A stretch of 64,000 nt of DNA from Methanomassiliicoccus sp. (lineage in GTDB: Archaea; Thermoplasmatota; Thermoplasmata; Methanomassiliicoccales; Methanomassiliicoccaceae): assembly GCA_018262895.1 (NCBI GenBank), contig JADFDJ010000003.1, positions 1-64,000 on the forward strand, read 5' to 3'. A program made the position numbers and the translations under genes. Under the pieces are notes generated by a model. That model worked only from the letters and a program-made list of their open reading frames with translations. It searched no databases and was not told the origin of the DNA. Below are positions 7,785 to 54,460 of the stretch, one piece after another. The first letter of the stretch is position 1. Every line of letters begins with the position of its first letter.

Positions 7785-8327
7785 ATGAGAACAAGCATCA
7801 AGATGTTAGCATTGGGCGCTGTTGCTGCCCTGATCATATCGGGAGTGGCCCTGACCACTCTGAAGGAGAACGACCTGTCCGCCGTGGGCGCGGACGCCCC
7901 CACGGTCTCCGTGGTGAGCCTTGGCTCCGATGCCGGCGAGGCGGTCATGGTCACTACCGAAGCTAATGGAGAGAGCGTTCCGCTCAGCGGCGCGAAGGTG
8001 ATGATCTGCAAGATGAACGTTACCTGCGACGGCGAACAGACCACCATGAGGGTCATGGAGATGATCGCTCTCCAGACCGGCGAGGACGGCAAGGTCCAGT
8101 ACAACTTCTCCGAGGGATACAAGTACATGATCTGCGCGGAGAACCAGGAGCAGATGGGATTCGCCAACAAGAACATGAACCAGACCGAGGCGGGGCTCTG
8201 CTACCAGCACCAGTGGGAATGGAGCCACATGAACGGCCAGATGTTCACCGCGAACTGCCCCGGTGAGGCCCAAGAGGGGACCCAGACCGCGATTCAGGGC
8301 GGTGAGGGCGTAAAGGCGGGGCAGTAG
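7785..8327 (+). CDS. Secreted cysteine-containing protein, paralogue 1
   Basis: A 180-aa protein with an N-terminal signal or anchor helix (basic MRTSIK, then about 18 hydrophobic residues). A beta-rich segment like a carboxypeptidase-regulatory or Ig-type fold follows (PLSGAKVMICKMNVTC, GEDGKVQYNFSEGYKYMICA), and then a Gln/Gly-rich tail. Four cysteines in the mature part could form disulfides or bind metal. It shares the N-terminus and fold with the next gene at 8506, so the two are tandem paralogues. Acts at or outside the membrane; partner unknown. Confidence 0.7.
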   Translation: MRTSIKMLALGAVAALIISGVALTTLKENDLSAVGADAPTVSVVSLGSDAGEAVMVTTEANGESVPLSGAKVMICKMNVTCDGEQTTMRVMEMIALQTGEDGKVQYNFSEGYKYMICAENQEQMGFANKNMNQTEAGLCYQHQWEWSHMNGQMFTANCPGEAQEGTQTAIQGGEGVKAGQ

Positions 8328-8505
8328 GGAGGACGCGCGCCCTGCCCTTAAAACCACTTCCATTTCTAGGCGTCTCCCCCTTGTGGCGGTCGTGATGACC
8401 TCCCCAAGGGTAAGTGAAGAACATTATGTGAACGATTCATCCAGATGATTCTTTCCGACCTGGGATATAATGTTCGGACGCTCCTCTTTCCCGGAGGAAC
8501 ATGGT

Positions 8506-22935: not shown

Positions 22936-24096
22936 TCAATTCTTTTTCAACAACAGCAACAGGCCTGCGACGACCACCGCCGCCGGGACGGCTATAAGCC
23001 ACGAGGGGAACGGCAGGTATCTCTCGATGAACGTCAGACGGTAGGTGGCTATGTTCAGAGACGCGTCGGTCGAACCGTTGGACGATATCCAGTACTGCAT
23101 GGTGATCACCTCGTCACCGTCGCCGCAGCTCATGAGCCAGTAGTCGTCCCCGACATCAGACATCTCCAGGTCCCCTTTTATCAGCTCGTAGGAACCGTCC
23201 AAGGCGAGAACCGAGTCGGAAAGGGTCCACTGGAGGTCGACGTACTCGCGCAGGTACGGTATGACCATCGCGCTCCCGCAGACCGCCGCGCTCTTCCCGT
23301 ACATTCGATGGTCGTCGTAGTCCTCAAGGGAGGTCAGGGGCTCAGCATGATCCTCTTCAGCGTTGTAGATGAAAGAATCGGAGAGAGCCTTGTCTCCCGC
23401 CCAGTAAACGAAGAACTTGCCGTCGAAAGGAAGGAGCACAGCATCGCAGAGGTGTTCCGGAACGGCCACGCTGTCGATCATGTCATGGCTATCCAGGTCC
23501 CAGGTCACGATGGTCAAGCTGGGGACCATCTCGGTTCCTTTATCGCCGAGCACGACGACATGGCCCGGCATCTTGTACAGCAAGCCATCGTCTATCAGGA
23601 GGTCGCACTGGGTGGCGTTCTCCAGTTCAGGGACCATCCATCCTTCCCCGATCCGCATGGTTTGGAGGTTCAGCTCGTAGATGATCGCTCGGCCGAACAG
23701 GTGGTCCACGTCCGAGGTTCCCTGGTGCCCGATCAGATAGATCCCGTCCTCCCCCTGCAGGAGCTCGTAGAGCACGGTGTTGTCGTCGAGGTTCTCCATC
23801 CCGGTGATCGCGCGATCCTCGACCTCCCCGCTCCGCAGGTCCAGTCGTCCCACGGTGTAGTCGTGGGTGACGTTGTTGTCGACGATGTCCCGATCGTCAA
23901 GTAACAGATAGACCGAGTCGCCGACCTTGGCGGGGGCCCCTCTCTGCATGCTCGCCCACAAAGGGTCCAATCCGGTGAACTCCATCCCCTTCTCCATTTC
24001 AAGGCTGGCATCGCTCTGAAAGAGGACAAACATCGATGACATCGTCACCAGCAGCACCACGCCGGTAACTAGGATCTCCAGAGCCGCCCTGTTCAA
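22936..24096 (-). CDS. Membrane-anchored extracytoplasmic beta-propeller-like protein
   Basis: 386 aa. An N-terminal membrane helix (about residues 7-27) and a C-terminal one (about 362-382, followed by KKN) bracket a large acidic beta-rich domain with repeated strands such as GDSVYLLLDDRD, GEDGIYLIGHQG and GKFFVYWAGDKA, spaced like propeller blades. The domain would face outside. No enzymatic residues are evident, so ligand or partner binding is the reasonable guess. It is divergent from the heliorhodopsin gene with a 450-bp gap. Confidence 0.6.
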   Translation of the reverse strand: MNRAALEILVTGVVLLVTMSSMFVLFQSDASLEMEKGMEFTGLDPLWASMQRGAPAKVGDSVYLLLDDRDIVDNNVTHDYTVGRLDLRSGEVEDRAITGMENLDDNTVLYELLQGEDGIYLIGHQGTSDVDHLFGRAIIYELNLQTMRIGEGWMVPELENATQCDLLIDDGLLYKMPGHVVVLGDKGTEMVPSLTIVTWDLDSHDMIDSVAVPEHLCDAVLLPFDGKFFVYWAGDKALSDSFIYNAEEDHAEPLTSLEDYDDHRMYGKSAAVCGSAMVIPYLREYVDLQWTLSDSVLALDGSYELIKGDLEMSDVGDDYWLMSCGDGDEVITMQYWISSNGSTDASLNIATYRLTFIERYLPFPSWLIAVPAAVVVAGLLLLLKKN

Positions 24097-24545
24097 TTCT
24101 CCACCAGGGGCATCATCTCACAGTTCGGCATAATATTGTTGTTCTAGGAAATGGAATGTAAATAATGTTAAAAGAGGCGTTTCAGCATCTTAACGCAAGC
24201 TATACTCAACAACATAATTAGTTGCGATTCGATATGGTCCTCGGGGACCATTGCTGAGACGGCTGGTGGTACCGGCCGCACCGCAACATCATCATGGCCT
24301 TGTAGGACGAGATACGCAGAAACCGAGGCGCCAGTTACGACTCATCATCGTTGACAACAACAGGTTCCATCATTTCTCTACTACTACGTCCAATAATACC
24401 TCTCTACCCATCTGGCGCCTTGAAAGGCGTCAATTATGTCCATTTGAGCCAAATCTCGTCCATAATTGCCTTATGACCACCTTCATGTTGATTCTATCAT
24501 GAACTTGGCCAACCTATTTTGAACTGCACTTTCATACCGGGCAGG
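24097..24545. other. 450-bp intergenic region between divergent genes
   Basis: AT-rich, and should hold promoters for the propeller-like gene (minus, ATAATATTG near 24130) and heliorhodopsin (plus, weak CCTATTTT at 24513). No coding sequence or RNA recognised. The possible frame at 24251-24502 has poor composition and no homology that I can see. Confidence 0.4.
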
Positions 24546-25322
24546 ATGCCGGAGGGGGAGGACTGTAGGTATGAAGGGCTGCGCCGCTTCAACCTGGTCA
24601 CCGGCTTGGCCCATGCGGTCCAAGCTACGCTGATGCTAGCCCTGAGTGAAGATCAGGGGTTGCCGATTCAAACCAGCTTTTTAAGATATGATCCAACGGC
24701 TTCAACGGCGATGCCGAACATCGAGACCTGGTTCTATCTGCCCATCGGTCCGACCATCGCCGTAATGATGTACCTGACCGCATTATCGCACCTTCTAGTG
24801 TCCACGGTCGGATACAACTGGTATCGCCAAAACCTGATCAAGCATCGCAATCCGGCACGGTGGATCGAGTACTCCATCACATCGTCGATCATGATCATGC
24901 TCATCGCGCTATTATGCGGAATAAATGATCTAGCGGCTCTCTTACCGCTAGTGGCCATCAATGCGACCATGAACCTGTTCGGCGATCTCATGGAACTACA
25001 TAATCAGACGACGGAACGGACGGATTGGACCTCTTTCCTGTACGGAACGTTCGCTGGGGTGGTCCCATGGATAGTGATCATCCTCTACTTTCTGGGAGCG
25101 GTTATACCGTCCTCGGACGCCCTTCCAGGGTTCGTGCTCCTTATCGTCCTGTCAATGCTAGCATTCTGGATCCGCTTCCCCATCAACATGATACTGCAGT
25201 ACAAGAAGGTAGGAAGATGGGAGGATTACCTGTATGGCGAAAGGGCGTACATCATCCTCAGTCTGGTCTCCAAGAGTGCGCTGGCGTGGCAGGTATGGTT
25301 TGGGACGCTGAGGGGGGGATGA
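24546..25322 (+). CDS. Heliorhodopsin
   Basis: A 258-aa seven-helix retinal protein. The retinal Schiff-base lysine is K243 in SLVSKSALAWQVWFGTL (helix G). The counterion Glu is E108 in ARWIEYSITSSIMI (helix C). H23 (GLAHAVQ) and H82 (ALSHLLV) match the conserved cytoplasmic/active-site histidines of this family. Further signatures are NATMNLFGDLMEL, VPWIVII, INMILQYKKVGRWEDYLYGE and AYIILSLV. The membrane topology of this family is inverted relative to type-1 rhodopsins. ATG 24546 gives the usual length; an in-frame TTG at 24519 is an alternative. No retinal-synthesis gene is in the window. It is light-responsive with a signalling or accessory role, not a known pump. Confidence 0.93.
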   Translation: MPEGEDCRYEGLRRFNLVTGLAHAVQATLMLALSEDQGLPIQTSFLRYDPTASTAMPNIETWFYLPIGPTIAVMMYLTALSHLLVSTVGYNWYRQNLIKHRNPARWIEYSITSSIMIMLIALLCGINDLAALLPLVAINATMNLFGDLMELHNQTTERTDWTSFLYGTFAGVVPWIVIILYFLGAVIPSSDALPGFVLLIVLSMLAFWIRFPINMILQYKKVGRWEDYLYGERAYIILSLVSKSALAWQVWFGTLRGG

Positions 25323-25764
25323 GATCGAGAATCGAGAGGTGGTGTTGGAGCGAGTTTGATAGGTTGCTCCCGACAATTACCTCCCTCGTCGCCGTATGTA
25401 ATACACAGGCCGTACTGACGACCTTGACGGTGAGAATTCCAACCCGCTTCTTTGTTCGAGTAGAAAGCCTGAGTTGCCCGGGACCACAGACAAGGTCTAT
25501 TTCATCTTCGTATCTATCCACTTGGCCATTCACATAAGAATATTATTAAATCCAGATTAAGGGAATTAGGCCACGATAGGACAGAGAGTAAGATCTCCAT
25601 CCCGGTGTTTATGTATATGATTCTGTGAATAAAATATTTTATAGCCGAGCCGTCGTTGAACAGAGGATCGGGAAGTAAAAGCTGTCCTTCTGCCGTAAAG
25701 ATTGGAATTTGTGAAAACCTGTTTTACACGCCGGGGCAAAATCGCCCTTAGCCAGATAAGGAAG
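25323..25764. other. 440-bp gap before tRNA-Trp
   Basis: I see no gene. The region becomes AT-rich from 25540 (TATTATTAAATCC, AAAATATTTTATAG), which may include terminator signals of the heliorhodopsin transcript and of the tRNA gene reading leftwards. Open frames here have no recognisable features. Confidence 0.4.
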
Positions 25765-25936
25765 TGGGGGCACTGGGATTTGAACCCAGATCAGCGGGTT
25801 TCCACCAGACAGGGAGCGACCCTGTCGGAATCGTACGGGTCAACGCTCCAGTCAATCATCACTGGTCAGCAAACCCGTTACCTTTCATTCCCGTATAACT
25901 GGAGCCCGCGAGTATACCGTGTTAGCCCATACCCCC
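25765..25936 (-). tRNA. tRNA-Trp(CCA) with about 99-nt intron
   Basis: Read on the minus strand: acceptor GGGGGTA (25936-25930) pairs with TGCCCCC (25772-25766), discriminator A 25765, no encoded CCA. Anticodon stem GCGGG (25909-25905)/CCCGC (25798-25794) encloses CTCCAG and a 3' A, giving anticodon CCA. T-arm CTGGG-TTCAAAT-CCCAG. The intron spans about 25800-25898 at the canonical 37/38 site and ends with a 7-bp hairpin (GACAGGG/CCCTGTC). The D-stem is weak. The exact splice points are approximate, because the BHB has one mismatch. Confidence 0.92.
25840..25889 (-). ncRNA. Box C/D guide RNA inside the tRNA-Trp intron
   Basis: On the minus strand the order is box C-like AATGAAAG (25889-25882), guide ACGGGTTTG, box D' CTGA (25869-25866), box C' GTGATGA (25862-25856), guide CTGGAGC (25851-25845), and a D-like TTGA (25843-25840). 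CTGGAGC pairs with GCTCCAG of the anticodon loop, and the fifth base before TTGA faces C34. CGGGTTT pairs with AAACCCG at the 3' splice region, and the fifth base before CTGA faces C39. This matches the known euryarchaeal design for 2'-O-methylation of residues 34 and 39 of tRNA-Trp. Confidence 0.88.
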
Positions 25937-25947
25937 ACTGTTCAGCT

Positions 25948-26055
25948 TTATACCTTGCGCATCTTCTGCTGCCGCTTGCGGCGCCTCATCTTCTTCTTGC
26001 GCCACTTCCATCTCTGCTTGCCTCGCTTTTTCCAAGCGCGTGAGCTTCTCTTCAT
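25948..26055 (-). CDS. rpl41e: Ribosomal protein eL41
   Basis: ATG 26055 to TAA 25948, 35 aa, extremely basic. The core RWKWRKKKMRRRKRQQKMRK is the single-helix eL41 pattern, a small protein at the bridge between ribosomal subunits. The N-terminus MKRSSRAWKKRGKQ is a longer arm than the minimal 25-residue form. It lies between tRNA-Trp and tRNA-Arg on the same strand, 11 bp from the tRNA-Trp 5' end, possibly in one transcript. Such a short gene is easily missed. Confidence 0.85.
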   Translation of the reverse strand: MKRSSRAWKKRGKQRWKWRKKKMRRRKRQQKMRKV

Positions 26056-26124: not shown

Positions 26125-26243
26125 TGGCGGGCTCGTCGGGAATTTCGCCTTCTAGAGAAGGTTTCGAACCCGAGACCACTGACTTACTTCCATGAGGTTC
26201 ATGGTAGAAGGCCAGTGCTATATCCAGGCTAAGCCACGAGCCC
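26125..26243 (-). tRNA. tRNA-Arg(TCT) with two introns, one in the T-loop
   Basis: Acceptor GGGCTCG (26243-26237) pairs with CGAGCCC (26135-26129), discriminator G, CCA encoded (26127-26125). Anticodon stem CTGGC/GTCAG with loop CTTCTA + A. Intron 1 is 26204-26185 (20 nt): CTTC/GAAG central helix with bulges TAC and TAA and a CATG/CATG helix, a perfect BHB. Intron 2 is 26162-26142 (21 nt) in the T-loop: stem TCGGG/CCCGA, central helix TTCG/CGAA, bulges AAA and ATT, hairpin CCTTC-TCTA-GAAGG. Cutting in the bulges restores the loop TTCGAAT. Confidence 0.92.
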
Positions 26244-26302: not shown

Positions 26303-26384
26303 GCTGGAGCGGCGCCGAAGCCTGGAAACCTGACAAGACCTAGCAATGATTAATGGATACGTTCCCGTATTCTATGGTGACATC

Positions 26385-26948
26385 ATGGACGTCACGGAAG
26401 CGGTTCATAGTCGTAGAGCGCTGCGGGCCCTGGAAACACGGACCATTGAGGAGGATAAGGTCCGGAAGATGGTGGAGGCCATGCGCCTTGCACCAAGCTG
26501 CAACAACAATCAGCCGTGGAGGGTGGTACTGTGCACCGGGGAAGCATTGGATAAGGTGAAGGAGTGCCTGGACAAGGGAAACGTATGGGCCACGAGGGCG
26601 CCCCTCATCATCGTTGTGTCTGCCAAGCCTTCCGAGGACTGCCGCCAGGGCGAGGGCCGGGACTACTACAAGTTCAGCTGCGGCCTGGGCGTCGCCCAGA
26701 TGATCCTGCAGGCCACGGAGCTAGGGCTCATCGCGCACCCCATATCCGGCTTCAACCCCGTGAAGACGCGCGCAGCCCTGGGCATACCCGCTGACTACGT
26801 GGTGATCACCTACGTTATCTGCGGCTATCCCAGTGACGATGAGAGCCTGCTATCGGACTGGCAGAAGGAGAGGCAGCGGACCAGGCCTGAACGCAAGCCC
26901 ATAGGCGAGACGTTCTACAGCGGCCGATGGGGGGAGCCGCTCCAATAG
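26385..26948 (+). CDS. Nitroreductase-family FMN oxidoreductase
   Basis: 187 aa from ATG 26385, which gives the usual family N-terminus MDVTEAVHSRRALRALE with the FMN-phosphate-binding SRRALR. An upstream ATG at 26346 adds 13 residues. RLAPSCNNNQPWRVVL (FMN contacts) and the glycine-rich GLGVAQMILQATELGLIA are typical. The domain is about full length, and members act as homodimers reducing quinones, nitro compounds or flavins with NAD(P)H. A GNAT gene follows 16 bp downstream, in a probable operon. Substrate unknown. Confidence 0.85.
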   Translation: MDVTEAVHSRRALRALETRTIEEDKVRKMVEAMRLAPSCNNNQPWRVVLCTGEALDKVKECLDKGNVWATRAPLIIVVSAKPSEDCRQGEGRDYYKFSCGLGVAQMILQATELGLIAHPISGFNPVKTRAALGIPADYVVITYVICGYPSDDESLLSDWQKERQRTRPERKPIGETFYSGRWGEPLQ

Positions 26949-27528: not shown

Positions 27529-27653
27529 GGTATTGCCCTTCGGTCCCCTCTCAACAATTGGGGACCGCCGGCCACTATCAGTAAATCATCGCCAATACTA
27601 GGTCCTCGATAAGCGTTGTATACCTCGACCGACAATGTACAGAGGTGGTGCCG

Positions 27654-27974
27654 ATGGTAAAGACGGCAGTTTGCCTGACCTCAGAGCTCCTTCCGGGGAG
27701 CATGCGCGGCGTTGAGGTCCTGGGACGCAGCGTCCTGGTGGTCAACGTGGAGGGGACGTTCTATGCAGTGGACGGCATATGCTCCCACGGCCTCGCGGAC
27801 CTAGCACGGGGGAAACTGGAAGGCCACATACTCCAATGCCCCCGGCATGGGGCGCGCTTCGATGTGCGGAACGGCAAGGTCCTCACCGGGCCGGTGGACA
27901 TCGAGGGCCGGGCATGGGACCTCCGCACCTATCCTGTGGTCGTGGAGAAGGGATGCTTGACCGTGGACGTTTGA
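27654..27974 (+). CDS. Rieske [2Fe-2S] ferredoxin
   Basis: 106 aa from ATG 27654, chosen for the GAGGTG 7 nt upstream rather than the GTG at 27645. Cluster ligands are in CSHGLADL (Cys-x-His) and CPRHGARFD (Cys-x2-His), with the usual spacing of about 20 residues. It is a soluble Rieske protein like the electron donors of dioxygenases or NirD-type proteins; no oxygenase is nearby. In an anaerobe it may serve as a general electron carrier. It precedes the 510-aa orphan by 43 bp. Confidence 0.9.
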   Translation: MVKTAVCLTSELLPGSMRGVEVLGRSVLVVNVEGTFYAVDGICSHGLADLARGKLEGHILQCPRHGARFDVRNGKVLTGPVDIEGRAWDLRTYPVVVEKGCLTVDV

Positions 27975-28016: not shown

Positions 28017-29549
28017 ATGTCCATACGCCAAGTACCTGCTGATAGGCCGGGCGACGCTGAGATTCTGGCCTCCCTGCAGGGCTTTTGCCCGGTCCCCTCT
28101 GGGAGCATAATCGAGCTCTTGCCTCGGCGGCGGGTCATGGACCTTGTTGAAAAGAGGCGTAGGTCCGGTGAGGGAGATGTGGAAGTGCTCCTCAAAGCCC
28201 TGGATTTCGACGGGGAAGCGGTTTTCCAGAAGGGCTACTCCCTGATATCGTCCTGCAGGCTGAGCCTCCGGACCTCGACCATCTTCATGCTTCTCAGGGC
28301 CATGTCCGAGAGCGGGGAGAGCCGCAACGATGTCCTGCGGCGTGTCCTGGTCCCAGCGGTGGAGGAGGCCTTGGAACGGACCGTGGACAGCATGGATGAG
28401 GGCAAGTCCCGCCTGCTGCGGTACTCCTTGGACAACTGGAAGGGCCTGCGCCGGAGCACCGGGGACCTTGTTGAGCCCGGGGACGAGCGCTGCGGGGAAG
28501 GGGTCTCGGGCATCACCCACCGCAGATGCTTGGGAAGCGAGGACCTTCCTCCGGAGCTGAGCAAGACCTCCAGGTACTTCCTGAAGAACCTCTTCCGCCT
28601 GAACAACCTGCACGGGGACAACGAGTTCTACCATCCTCCGGAGGTGCTGGAGGACTACTGGGAGGTGATCTCCCCGGACCAGGGCACCTTTGACGTTCGC
28701 ATGACGCCGTCCAGGAAGGAGCTCACTGTGGGGCTGTTCCGCACATCCCGGGGCTTCGGCATGAACCGGACGGAGAACGAGGACTACTACAACCTGCTGG
28801 AGTTCCTGGCCTCGGAGCGCAGGGACCCCCGCATCCACTGTTGTCGAGTGGAGCTGCACGGACCTACCTTCGAGGACGAGCAGTACCTCCAGGAGGCCCT
28901 CAGCGTGGAGACAGTGCTGGTCGAGGGGCCCGTCATCGAGGGCACCCTGGCCGGAAGGCCCCGGCCCCTGAGCCCAGAAGGCGCTGGGATCTTCCGCTCC
29001 CTGCTGCGGAAGATGTCCGGGGTCCGCGCGGAGGTGCAGTTCCCTGTTAACCTCGCCGATCCCGACCACGGCCAGGAGGACTTCTCAGTCCTGGGCTTCG
29101 ACCTTGAGCACGATCCCGATGCGGACCGCTTCCTCCTAGATGATGTCGCTGTGTCCTCCGGCAACCTTCAGGACGTGGTGCTGGTGATCGGGAGCAAGCT
29201 GCTGGCGCTGTCGCGCAGGGTGTACCCGCGCCCCGCTTCCTTCCCCCAACCGGACGTAGAGAGGCTGGAGGAGGAGGTTCAAGCCCTCATGTCTCGGGTA
29301 GAGGGGGAAGAGCTGACTGAGGATATCGCGCGGGAGATCGTGGCCAAGATCACCGTGCTCGATTACTATGAGTCGCTAACGAGGTACAGCTTCTCCCTGG
29401 GGGAGCAGCTGCTGGCATATCTGGAGGGTGAGCACGTAGTCACCCTGCCCATCCCCCGGGTTCTCCTGGCCCTCCTGAACGAGGGGTTAGAGCATCAGCC
29501 AGCGGACGAGCGTCTGCGGGCAGCCTTGAGGTCGGAGGATGGGGGATGA
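28017..29549 (+). CDS. Unknown 510-aa protein coupled to a NYN-domain nuclease
   Basis: I recognise no domain. It is soluble and mainly helical in the first 200 residues (long Arg/Glu helices such as RRVLVPAVEEALERTVDSM), with a mixed middle and a helical C-terminus. The middle has scattered Cys (IHCCRVEL). The stop overlaps the start of the NYN gene by 4 bp (ATGA), so the two are translated together, and the pair lies behind the Rieske gene. A role with the nuclease in RNA handling or in a defence-like module is conceivable but rests only on coupling. Confidence 0.7.
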   Translation: MSIRQVPADRPGDAEILASLQGFCPVPSGSIIELLPRRRVMDLVEKRRRSGEGDVEVLLKALDFDGEAVFQKGYSLISSCRLSLRTSTIFMLLRAMSESGESRNDVLRRVLVPAVEEALERTVDSMDEGKSRLLRYSLDNWKGLRRSTGDLVEPGDERCGEGVSGITHRRCLGSEDLPPELSKTSRYFLKNLFRLNNLHGDNEFYHPPEVLEDYWEVISPDQGTFDVRMTPSRKELTVGLFRTSRGFGMNRTENEDYYNLLEFLASERRDPRIHCCRVELHGPTFEDEQYLQEALSVETVLVEGPVIEGTLAGRPRPLSPEGAGIFRSLLRKMSGVRAEVQFPVNLADPDHGQEDFSVLGFDLEHDPDADRFLLDDVAVSSGNLQDVVLVIGSKLLALSRRVYPRPASFPQPDVERLEEEVQALMSRVEGEELTEDIAREIVAKITVLDYYESLTRYSFSLGEQLLAYLEGEHVVTLPIPRVLLALLNEGLEHQPADERLRAALRSEDGG

Positions 29550-30304
29550 CCACCGTGGGGATCTACGTGGACGGCCCTAACATGGAGCGGGGCCTGTTCG
29601 AGGCGGGGGAGCTGAAGATCCTGGAGAGGGTGGGTAGCGTTCTGATGGAGCACGCCCAGAGCTTGGGTGAGGTTGTGGACGCGGACGTGTTCCTGGACGA
29701 GGCGACCCTGTGGAGGTCGCAGAAGACCCGGGAGGACTACGAGCTGAACGGCTTCCGTTTCAGGGAGACCAAATCGTTCAAGCACATGGACCTCAACACC
29801 GGCGCCATCTCCTTCGGGAAGAGCCTGACGGACCCGTCCATGCACTGCGCCATCGTGGACAGGCTCCATGACCAGGACTGCCCCGACATTCTTGTCCTGG
29901 TCACCGGGGACAAGGACATCACCGTGGTCCTGGAGTACATCAGCATGCATCACAAGGAGGCGGTCGTGGTGGGAGAGGCCAACTCCATCTCCAGCTTCCT
30001 CATCTCCAAGTGCGAGGACCTGGGCTTCGGGTGCCATGTCCTGCAGCTGATGGCCCCACGCAGCAGGGTGCTGGAAGGCCTTGCGGACAGGGACATCAAG
30101 GAAAGGAGGGGCGCAGAGGGGCTGCGCGTCACCGACGGGGCGGGCAAGCCGATAAGCATGCACAAGTACCTGAAGTACCGCAACGACCGCTCCAACCAGA
30201 AGAACCCCAACAACATCGCCTACTGGCGCTCCCGCGGGTACCGCGAACGCCCTCCGGACTGGGAGGAAATCTGGAAGAGGGAGAAGGAAAAGGAGCCGGA
30301 GTAG
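29546..30304 (+). CDS. NYN-domain (LabA/DUF88, PIN-like) protein
   Basis: 252 aa. The PIN-like NYN ribonuclease fold has its first acidic residue in GIYVDGPNMERGLFE (residues 5-19) and the second cluster in DILVLVTGDKDITVVLEYI (about 113-131; TGDKD), the metal-binding acids expected for an RNase. A region VVVGEANSISSFLISKCEDL follows. The C-terminal 60 residues are basic and rich in Arg, Lys and Asn (KYRNDRSNQKNPNN, WKREKEKEPE), probably RNA-binding. It is co-translated with the 510-aa protein. Targets unknown. Confidence 0.85.
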   Translation: MTTVGIYVDGPNMERGLFEAGELKILERVGSVLMEHAQSLGEVVDADVFLDEATLWRSQKTREDYELNGFRFRETKSFKHMDLNTGAISFGKSLTDPSMHCAIVDRLHDQDCPDILVLVTGDKDITVVLEYISMHHKEAVVVGEANSISSFLISKCEDLGFGCHVLQLMAPRSRVLEGLADRDIKERRGAEGLRVTDGAGKPISMHKYLKYRNDRSNQKNPNNIAYWRSRGYRERPPDWEEIWKREKEKEPE

Positions 30305-51036: not shown

Positions 51037-51140
51037 TGCCGGGGATGGGCTTTGAACCCATGACCTACGGATCTCTCGGACCCTGGCCTATGGTCAGGAC
51101 CTTATGAGTCCGTCGCTCCACCAGGCTGAGCCACCCCGGC
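51037..51140 (-). tRNA. Elongator tRNA-Met(CAT) with 30-nt intron
   Basis: Acceptor GCCGGGG (51140-51134)/CCCCGGC (51044-51038), discriminator A, no CCA. Anticodon stem ACGGA/TCCGT; after removal of 51102-51073 the loop is CTCATAA (CAT). The intron is an almost perfect BHB: central helix CTCA/CGAG (one A-C mismatch), bulges TAA and AGA, then a 7-bp helix GGTCCTG/CAGGGTC with a 9-nt loop. T-arm ATGGG-TTCAAAG-CCCAT. The acceptor matches archaeal elongator Met rather than initiator or Ile(CAU). Confidence 0.92.
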
Positions 51141-53085: not shown

Positions 53086-53937
53086 TTAGAAGTTGCCGGG
53101 TATCTCCTGGACGTCCAAGCCGAGCTTGTTCTTGGGTAGCCCCATAGCAAGACCGTAGAGCTGAGAAAGGTGTATCACCGGGAAGGAGTAGGTTCCCAAC
53201 TCCTTCTGGGTCCTGTCGAACTGGAGGTGGCAGAAGGGGCACACATCGATGATATATTGCGCTCCCGCGGCCTTGAGGTTCTTCAGCTTCTCCTCGGTGA
53301 ACTTGGTGGCCAGGGCAGGGTTCCCGGACCTGACGCCGCCGCCCGCGCCGCAGCACATCTGCTTGTCCTTGTAATCGACGCTCTTGGCGCCGGTGATCTC
53401 GACCAGCTCATCGAGTATCTTAGGGCGTTCTGGGTCGTCAAGCTGCTTTATGTTGCTGGGCTTCAGGAAGTGGCAGCCATAGTGGACCGCGACGTTCATC
53501 TCGAGGGGTGTCTTGATGTGAGATTTGACGGCATCTAGGCCAATCTCCTTGTAGACCAATTCGGCAAAATGGTGAACCTTGGTCTCTCCGTTGTACTCCA
53601 GGCCGACCTCGCGCAGGATCTTGTTGACGTTGCGGAGCTTCTCGGGGTCGTTGTGCAGGACGTGGGCAGCGTCGAACAGCGAGCCATAGCAGCCGTTGCA
53701 GATGGTGAGGATGTCCACGCCCTTCTTCTGAGCGAGGGCCAGGTTCCTGGCAGCGATGGCCAGCCATGCGTCCTGCTCGAACGATTTGATCACACCGGGG
53801 GCGGGGCAGCAGCCAGCGCCCTCAAGCTCCACCAGCTCGATGCCCAGTTCCTTGCAAACCTCACGGGTGGAGGACTCAATACCGGGGTATCTGGCAGGGG
53901 CGACGCAGCCGAGGAAAAACGCGTACTTCTTGGCCAT
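53086..53937 (-). CDS. hdrB: CoB-CoM heterodisulfide reductase subunit B
   Basis: 283 aa. Carries the non-cubane 4Fe-4S catalytic cluster motifs: the two CCG domains, GAGCCPAPGVIK with flanking Cys, and KQMCCGAGGGVRSG ... CPFCHLQFD. It reduces the CoM-S-S-CoB heterodisulfide made in the last methanogenic step. It is 1 bp from hdrC. No hdrA is adjacent, as in several methanogens where hdrA sits elsewhere. Diagnostic of a methanogen. Confidence 0.95.
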   Translation of the reverse strand: MAKKYAFFLGCVAPARYPGIESSTREVCKELGIELVELEGAGCCPAPGVIKSFEQDAWLAIAARNLALAQKKGVDILTICNGCYGSLFDAAHVLHNDPEKLRNVNKILREVGLEYNGETKVHHFAELVYKEIGLDAVKSHIKTPLEMNVAVHYGCHFLKPSNIKQLDDPERPKILDELVEITGAKSVDYKDKQMCCGAGGGVRSGNPALATKFTEEKLKNLKAAGAQYIIDVCPFCHLQFDRTQKELGTYSFPVIHLSQLYGLAMGLPKNKLGLDVQEIPGNF

Positions 53938-53938
53938 A

Positions 53939-54460
53939 TTAATTGCCTCCTATGAGCTTGTCGAATCCAGTGGCCTTCAGGACCTTCTGGAAGTCTTCCA
54001 ATGCCTTCTTGTCGCCCAGGGTGTTCACGGGGCGGCGGGGCAGGCCGAGCTTCTCCCTGATCTCCTCATACTTTGGATTCAGGGGGATGGTCGCTCCGTT
54101 GGCCAGGAGGTACTGCCCGACCTTCTTGTGCTCATCGGACATTATGCCCTTGCTTACTGCCTTGTTGCGCAGGATGGTGATGATGTCCACGATCTCGACA
54201 CCGCGGGGGCAGCGCTCCATGCAGGCGTAGCAGGTGGTGCACATCCACAGATCGGGGGACTGCAGGACCTCGTCCTCAAGGCCTAGCTGGGCCTTGCGGA
54301 TGAGCTTTCGGGTCCTGTAGGAGGTCAATCTGCCGGAGGGGCAGCTTCCGCTGCATGTACCGCACTGGAAGCACAACATAAGGGTTTCACCGCCGTGCTC
54401 CTTCTGCACGGACTCAGCGAAATCGATGCTTGGTTGCTTTGGAGATGACAATAGGTTCAC
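53939..54460 (-). CDS. hdrC: CoB-CoM heterodisulfide reductase subunit C
   Basis: 173 aa, two 4Fe-4S clusters: CFQCGTCSGSCPSGRLTSY (about residues 30-48) and CTTCYACMERCPRGVEI (about 74-90). It passes electrons from HdrA to HdrB in the soluble HdrABC-type complex. The final codons meet hdrB with a 1-bp gap. No membrane segment, so this is the cytoplasmic HdrC rather than HdrE-type. Confidence 0.95.
   Translation of the reverse strand: MNLLSSPKQPSIDFAESVQKEHGGETLMLCFQCGTCSGSCPSGRLTSYRTRKLIRKAQLGLEDEVLQSPDLWMCTTCYACMERCPRGVEIVDIITILRNKAVSKGIMSDEHKKVGQYLLANGATIPLNPKYEEIREKLGLPRRPVNTLGDKKALEDFQKVLKATGFDKLIGGN

Follow-up and report, generated by a model that had tools for sequence, protein, structure and literature searches.

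The window, the whole stretch of 64,000 nucleotides of DNA that was analysed, contains a gene for a 258-aa heliorhodopsin (HeR), which stands between a divergently oriented gene and a pair of tRNA-like genes. The features to which the text refers are as follows:

22936..24096, minus strand: membrane-anchored beta-propeller-like protein of 386 aa, divergent from the HeR gene, no Pfam family
24519..24545, plus strand: candidate N-terminal extension of the HeR from an in-frame TTG start (ORF list)
24546..25322, plus strand: HeR gene, 258 aa (Pfam and NCBIfam HeR models, PDB and fold matches, conserved residues, dN/dS 0.15)
24867-24869, plus strand: codon of Glu108 in helix C of the HeR
25272-25274, plus strand: codon of Lys243 in helix G of the HeR
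25764..25938, minus strand: intron-bearing tRNA-Trp(CCA)-like gene, its 3' end toward the HeR (read from the sequence, pattern search)
25949..26055, minus strand: short ORF for an eL41-like ribosomal protein between the two tRNA genes, a backbone marker (read from the sequence)
26125..26243, minus strand: second intron-bearing tRNA-like gene, probably Arg(TCT) (read from the sequence)
26346..26948, plus strand: nitroreductase-family protein, first gene of a flanking block (neighbour clustering, NCBIfam)
27645-27974, 28017-29549, and 29546-30304: rest of the flanking block, the first of these a Rieske protein
53086..53937, minus strand: hdrB, CoB-CoM heterodisulfide reductase B (TIGR03288, 422 bits, cut-off 345)
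53939..54460, minus strand: hdrC (TIGR03290, 200 bits, cut-off 160)

The heliorhodopsin and its surroundings

The original prediction had read the plus-strand ORF at 24546-25322 as a heliorhodopsin with K243, E108, H23, and H82 at the positions typical of the family. The ORF is exactly as described, the alignment placed all four residues correctly, and the Pfam, NCBIfam, PDB, and fold matches agreed on the family. The PF18761 Heliorhodopsin model spanned the entire protein (E=6.8e-92; 307.6 bits, cut-off 26.7), and the NCBIfam model NF038020 scored 319 bits (cut-off 100). Among PDB sequences, the protein matched heliorhodopsins only, with TaHeR (6is6) as the best match (E=3.1e-72) and 48C12 at E=2e-57. 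The AlphaFold model, built with 16 aligned sequences (pLDDT 86.5), revealed seven long helices and a hairpin in the A-B loop (strands 38-49 and 54-66). Its ten best PDB fold matches were all HeRs (TM 0.84-0.91), with type-1 rhodopsins far behind, and all matches at E<=1e-14 were HeRs. We confirmed that the window ORF encodes a genuine heliorhodopsin (type-3 rhodopsin). The inverted membrane topology, with the N terminus inside, was assumed from homology. An alternative TTG start lies at 24519, 27 nt 5' of the HeR start, and the congeneric copy has an extension (MNC.F.P) similar to the one that it would add.

S239 and K243 form the helix 7 SxxxK motif, which Bulzu et al. (PMC8612252) used as a criterion for HeRs. 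In the alignment of HeRs of the order Methanomassiliicoccales, H23, H82, E108, S239, and K243 were near-invariant, and they were invariant in the full-length proteins; the sole exception at the Lys column was a fragmented frame in one genome (G011). In that gene (L032), the frame is split into two matched stretches and the helix G Lys is absent from the aligned ORF; it is possibly a decaying copy.

The closest characterized protein was TaHeR of Thermoplasmatales archaeon SG8-52-1 (PDB 6is6, 7u55), which belongs to the same family, has the same fold (TM 0.91), is 48% identical, and shares H23, H82, E108, K243, and Gln26. At two positions beside the Schiff base, the window HeR has Thr112 and Ser242 where TaHeR has Ser112 and Ala242, and it also differs by its separate clade in the tree and its methanogenic host; the two substitutions may shift the colour. 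HeR 48C12 (PDB 6su3) likewise shares the family and the key residues at 41% identity, whereas it is of actinobacterial origin and distant in the tree. The signal path proposed for TaHeR and 48C12 couples rotation of His-23 to Gln-26 and a tryptophan (PMC9385722), and the window HeR possesses both H23 and Gln26.

The beta-propeller-like gene had been suggested as a possible partner. We rejected this reading because no homologue was found near any other HeR locus examined, the congeneric copy included. Neighbourhood clustering identified no conserved operon around the window HeR. On the other side of the gene, neither of the two tRNA-like genes was called by ARAGORN or reached the Rfam gathering threshold. 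A 25-mer of the tRNA-Trp-like gene recurs in another genome of the order (G012) beside an integrase fragment and another HeR. The order of tRNA-Trp, eL41, and second tRNA is also repeated there (L042; second tRNA at 8299-8416), with the integrase fragment and then the HeR on the same 3' side of tRNA-Trp, and the nitroreductase/Rieske block adjoins HeR in that genome as well. The G012 HeR belongs to a different clade and is 43-46% identical to the window HeR. In G001 (L040), only 0.9 kb separates a HeR from a complete integrase gene that adjoins tRNA-Leu, and integrases were located within 10 kb of HeRs in G003 and G027. A search for att sites, in the form of a tRNA 3'-end repeat flanking the window HeR, was negative. 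The occurrence of HeR copies at tRNA and integrase sites makes tRNA-targeted integration a plausible route by which these genes arrive and move. The intron of the tRNA-Trp-like gene resembles the box C/D type, and a third long tRNA match in the window (Rfam, 51037-51140, 104 nt) is probably also intron-bearing.

Host, distribution, and descent

The window is part of a 200-kb contig (contig 24) of a 2.34-Mb assembly that is 99.7% complete with 1% contamination. The original prediction of a methanogenic host carrying hdrBC was borne out: both hdr genes exceeded their curated cut-offs, and the same assembly encodes McrA (PF02249, E=5e-68) in an mcrB-D-G-A run, of which B, D, and G were named from size and order rather than by a model. 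The HeR locus of another member of the window genus (G004) is contained in contig MVRB01000037.1 of Methanomassiliicoccales archaeon PtaU1.Bin030. On the basis of mcrBDGA, hdrBC, and the order-level placement, the host was identified as a methanogenic member of the Methanomassiliicoccales that shares its genus with the MAG PtaU1.Bin030. Methanogens are strict anaerobes, and this host would be expected to be one as well.

The window genome carries a second HeR (C30:101318-102049) that is 47% identical to the window HeR. A HeR scored above the family cut-off in 31 of the 61 sampled Methanomassiliicoccales genomes (32 at E<=0.001; 15 of 24 genera). Maximum-likelihood analysis of 115 HeRs grouped the window HeR with seven others, all from Methanomassiliicoccales (support 100/98), and these eight nested in a wider clade of 12 members, again confined to the order (95/94). 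The view that a HeR would be unexpected in a strict anaerobe was overstated, since about half of the sampled order carries one and HeRs of anaerobes have been published; their presence in archaea, Thermoplasmatota, and anaerobes is already known (PMC8612252, PMC7110647). A literature search linking heliorhodopsin with Methanomassiliicoccales returned nothing relevant; these genomes may well appear in the supplementary tables of Bulzu et al., which are based on GTDB r89.

We compared the window HeR with its copy in a congeneric genome (G003), which is 84% identical and occupies a different genomic place. The comparison yielded a dN of 0.11, a dS of 0.72, and a dN/dS of approximately 0.15, and the window HeR is native and under purifying selection. 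The paralogue had a dN/dS of 0.06 and a dS of 0.29. The higher dS of the window HeR could have pointed to a fast-evolving or recently transferred gene; this reading was rejected because the genes flanking the paralogue have dS values of 0.44-0.83 in the same genome pair. A dS of 0.72 is therefore ordinary for this pair, and the window HeR has probably been retained since the ancestor of the genus. These data also bear on whether the contig came from another organism as contamination. Such an origin is extremely improbable and was rejected, given a 200-kb contig that bears hdrBC and archaeal genes, an 84% identical congeneric orthologue, a strongly supported clade confined to the order, and the low contamination of the assembly.

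Retinal supply, carotenoid genes, and photolyase

We searched for enzymes that could supply retinal. Blh/Brp (PF15461) was absent from the window genome and, within a sample of 245 genomes of the phylum, from all Methanomassiliicoccales except for a weak match in G003 (E=8e-4, two stops), which was dismissed as spurious. Six genomes from a single other family of this sample had a clear Blh and served as the positive control; none of these carried a HeR. The 61 genomes of the order yielded neither a CrtYcd lycopene cyclase nor an RPE65-type carotenoid oxygenase. The sole match to PF05834 was weak (21-29.6 bits), and this family also scores in Escherichia coli and M. jannaschii, whose genomes have no carotenoids; the match is therefore most likely a geranylgeranyl-reductase relative. 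Blh/Brp or an oxygenase in combination with a lycopene cyclase, which we took as the mark of an own retinal supply, was not found in the window genome. Own synthesis by the recognised enzymes was rejected on these grounds, with PF05834 being too weak a match to count. The earlier suggestion that retinal is scavenged or made elsewhere agrees with this outcome: with no recognised retinal-forming enzyme or CrtYcd in the order, retinal would come from outside or through an unrecognised enzyme, and the gene content suggests that it is probably scavenged. Scavenging is proposed for Saccharibacteria rhodopsins (PMC9296517). Retinal genes are also reported to be missing for the HeRs of Bathyarchaeota, which, similar to the present case, belong to sediment archaea with no complete retinal pathway; unlike the window HeR, they come from another phylum, and their hosts were not shown to be methanogens (PMC7110647).

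The original prediction had also noted that the window holds no carotenoid gene. Nothing observed contradicts this statement for the window itself; outside it, contig 22 of the same genome carries a crtI-crtB-ubiA operon (L034:7514-10728). Its CrtI passed the NCBIfam equivalog for bifunctional phytoene desaturase/3,4-desaturase (688.6 bits, cut-off 640), and its UbiA-type protein passed PRK12875 (335 bits, cut-off 205). Six of the 61 genomes, from four genera, carry crtB; crtI adjoins every one of these crtB genes, and ubiA comes next in five of the genomes, the remaining one (G004) being a case in which the stretch read contains crtB only in part. With the LyeJ pathways of haloarchaea (PMC9410494) as a guide, the gene set suggests an acyclic C45/C50 carotenoid, probably C50. 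A CrtI-like enzyme of Methanosarcina yields hydroxyarchaeol instead of a carotenoid (PMC10821996); in the present operon, the position of crtB and ubiA beside crtI would argue for a carotenoid function and against a hydroxyarchaeol function. A review gives the carotenoids of methanogens as unknown (PMC9410494), and a literature search joining Methanomassiliicocc- with carotenoid and phytoene found no publication.

A photolyase scored above the cut-off in 21 of the 61 genomes of the order, and 18 of these were HeR-positive (Fisher P=1e-4). The association gave P=0.035 in a within-family permutation and P=0.007 at the genus level, where all nine genera with a photolyase also had a HeR; these tests were devised after the data had been seen and correct for phylogeny only coarsely. 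All six crtB genomes carry both a HeR and a photolyase, whereas 13 HeR genomes have no detected photolyase and 25 of the 31 HeR genomes have no crtB. In a post hoc grouping, 10 of the 11 genomes with a HeR of the window type contained a photolyase. In eight genomes of one family (f3), HeR and photolyase lie on the same contig at a distance of 3.8-11.7 kb with several genes between them; one of the eight HeRs, that of G056, is a fragment at the end of a contig and does not reach the cut-off. Against TIGR00591 (phr2; cut-off 550 bits), the photolyase of G016 scored 574 bits and that of the window genome 502 bits, the latter copy running off the end of its contig. In the window genome, the photolyase is on C13, the crt operon on C22, and the HeRs on C24 and C30, so that the window HeR is linked to neither. 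Tandem pairs of HeRs from two different clades were observed near a class II-type photolyase in G016 (L044) and G030 (L045).

Two published systems resemble this co-occurrence. In Trichococcus, the HeR binds and activates a class II CPD photolyase (TfHeR-TfPHR, PMC9769723); in contrast to that system, the window genome has no operon uniting a HeR and a class II photolyase, and the shared feature is that a HeR and a class II-type photolyase occur together. The archaeal Znf-HeRs of Thermoplasmatales (PMC8612252) show an association with carotenoid and photolyase genes, as in Methanomassiliicoccales, whereas the window HeR has neither the N-terminal zinc ribbon nor such neighbours.

Proposed function and alternatives

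Taken together, the window HeR is most likely a light-sensing regulator of defence against light and UV stress that uses scavenged retinal. In this model, K243 would bind all-trans retinal from the surroundings as a Schiff base, and E108 would be the counterion; visible light would isomerise the retinal in a slow photocycle, and the protein would signal to a partner, acting as a sensor rather than a pump. More tentatively, the HeR may belong to a light/UV-stress set together with the class II-type photolyase and, in some genomes, the acyclic carotenoid operon, and its genes may spread and relocate through tRNA-targeted integrative elements, which would leave the window copy without an operon partner. 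We give about an even chance to this explanation as a whole, namely a functional, retinal-binding light sensor of a methanogen that serves a photo/UV-stress set and is spread by mobile elements.

The HeR might instead bind and boost the class II-type photolyase directly, as TfHeR does with TfPHR, and thereby widen the colour range of DNA repair. The published precedent concerns the same photolyase class, and the strong co-occurrence, the 4-12 kb linkage in one family, and the photolyase of nearly all genomes with a window-type HeR are in keeping with such a role. We nevertheless consider it unlikely: the two genes share no operon and are separated by several others where linked, they are unlinked in the window genome, many HeR genomes have no detected photolyase, and the linkage may be the inherited synteny of a single family. 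Another reading, in which integrative elements carry the gene as a neutral passenger and its product is mostly an apo-protein in cells that normally lack retinal, is quite unlikely. The missing retinal-forming enzymes, the several HeR copies near integrase and tRNA sites, and the unconserved neighbours would accord with a passenger, whereas the low dN/dS of both copies, a dS typical of the genome pair and hence probable retention since the genus ancestor, and Schiff-base residues that are almost never lost argue against it. Light-gated or light-driven proton transport similar to that of viral V2HeR3, which would aid the methanogen in lit sediment, is very unlikely. The Schiff-base site is intact and the family has a viral precedent in what PMC9448325 describes; the window HeR is nonetheless close to archaeal TaHeR, and transport is reported for a viral HeR, with no literature report for a prokaryotic HeR found.

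Methanogens are commonly regarded as dark, oxygen-shy organisms. If the sensor model is true, methanogens would sense sunlight and defend themselves against it. A light receptor kept in half of the sampled order, and accompanied in part of it by photolyase and carotenoid genes, would imply that light acts as a cue or a stress on some methane producers. That some strictly anaerobic Methanomassiliicoccales run a light-response module of HeRs, class II photolyase, and a C50-type crtI-crtB-ubiA operon on retinal made by others is a possible, still doubtful, generalization. The new elements are the missing retinal synthesis and the co-occurring light-defence genes in a methanogen order, and they render two open questions testable, namely the function of HeRs and the scavenging of retinal by their hosts.

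Several other arrangements were observed around HeR genes. The second HeR of the window genome neighbours genes for a 2-thiouracil desulfurase-like/DUF1722 protein, a SOUL haem protein, and a glutaredoxin-like protein. HeRs from two distinct lineages of archaea have SOUL haem-binding genes close by (L035:7551-9089 in the window genome, and L130); in L035, the 2-thiouracil desulfurase/DUF1722 gene stands between the SOUL gene and the HeR. Fasciclin-domain genes or a C-terminal remnant of one occur just 5' of HeRs from two clades in three genomes of one family (L038:7699-8037, L040:8224-9448, and L042:9340-9382). In G012 (L042:9493-13323), the HeR is followed by a short-chain dehydrogenase and then by a DrrA-like ABC transporter, two classes reported as general neighbours of HeRs (PMC11109279).
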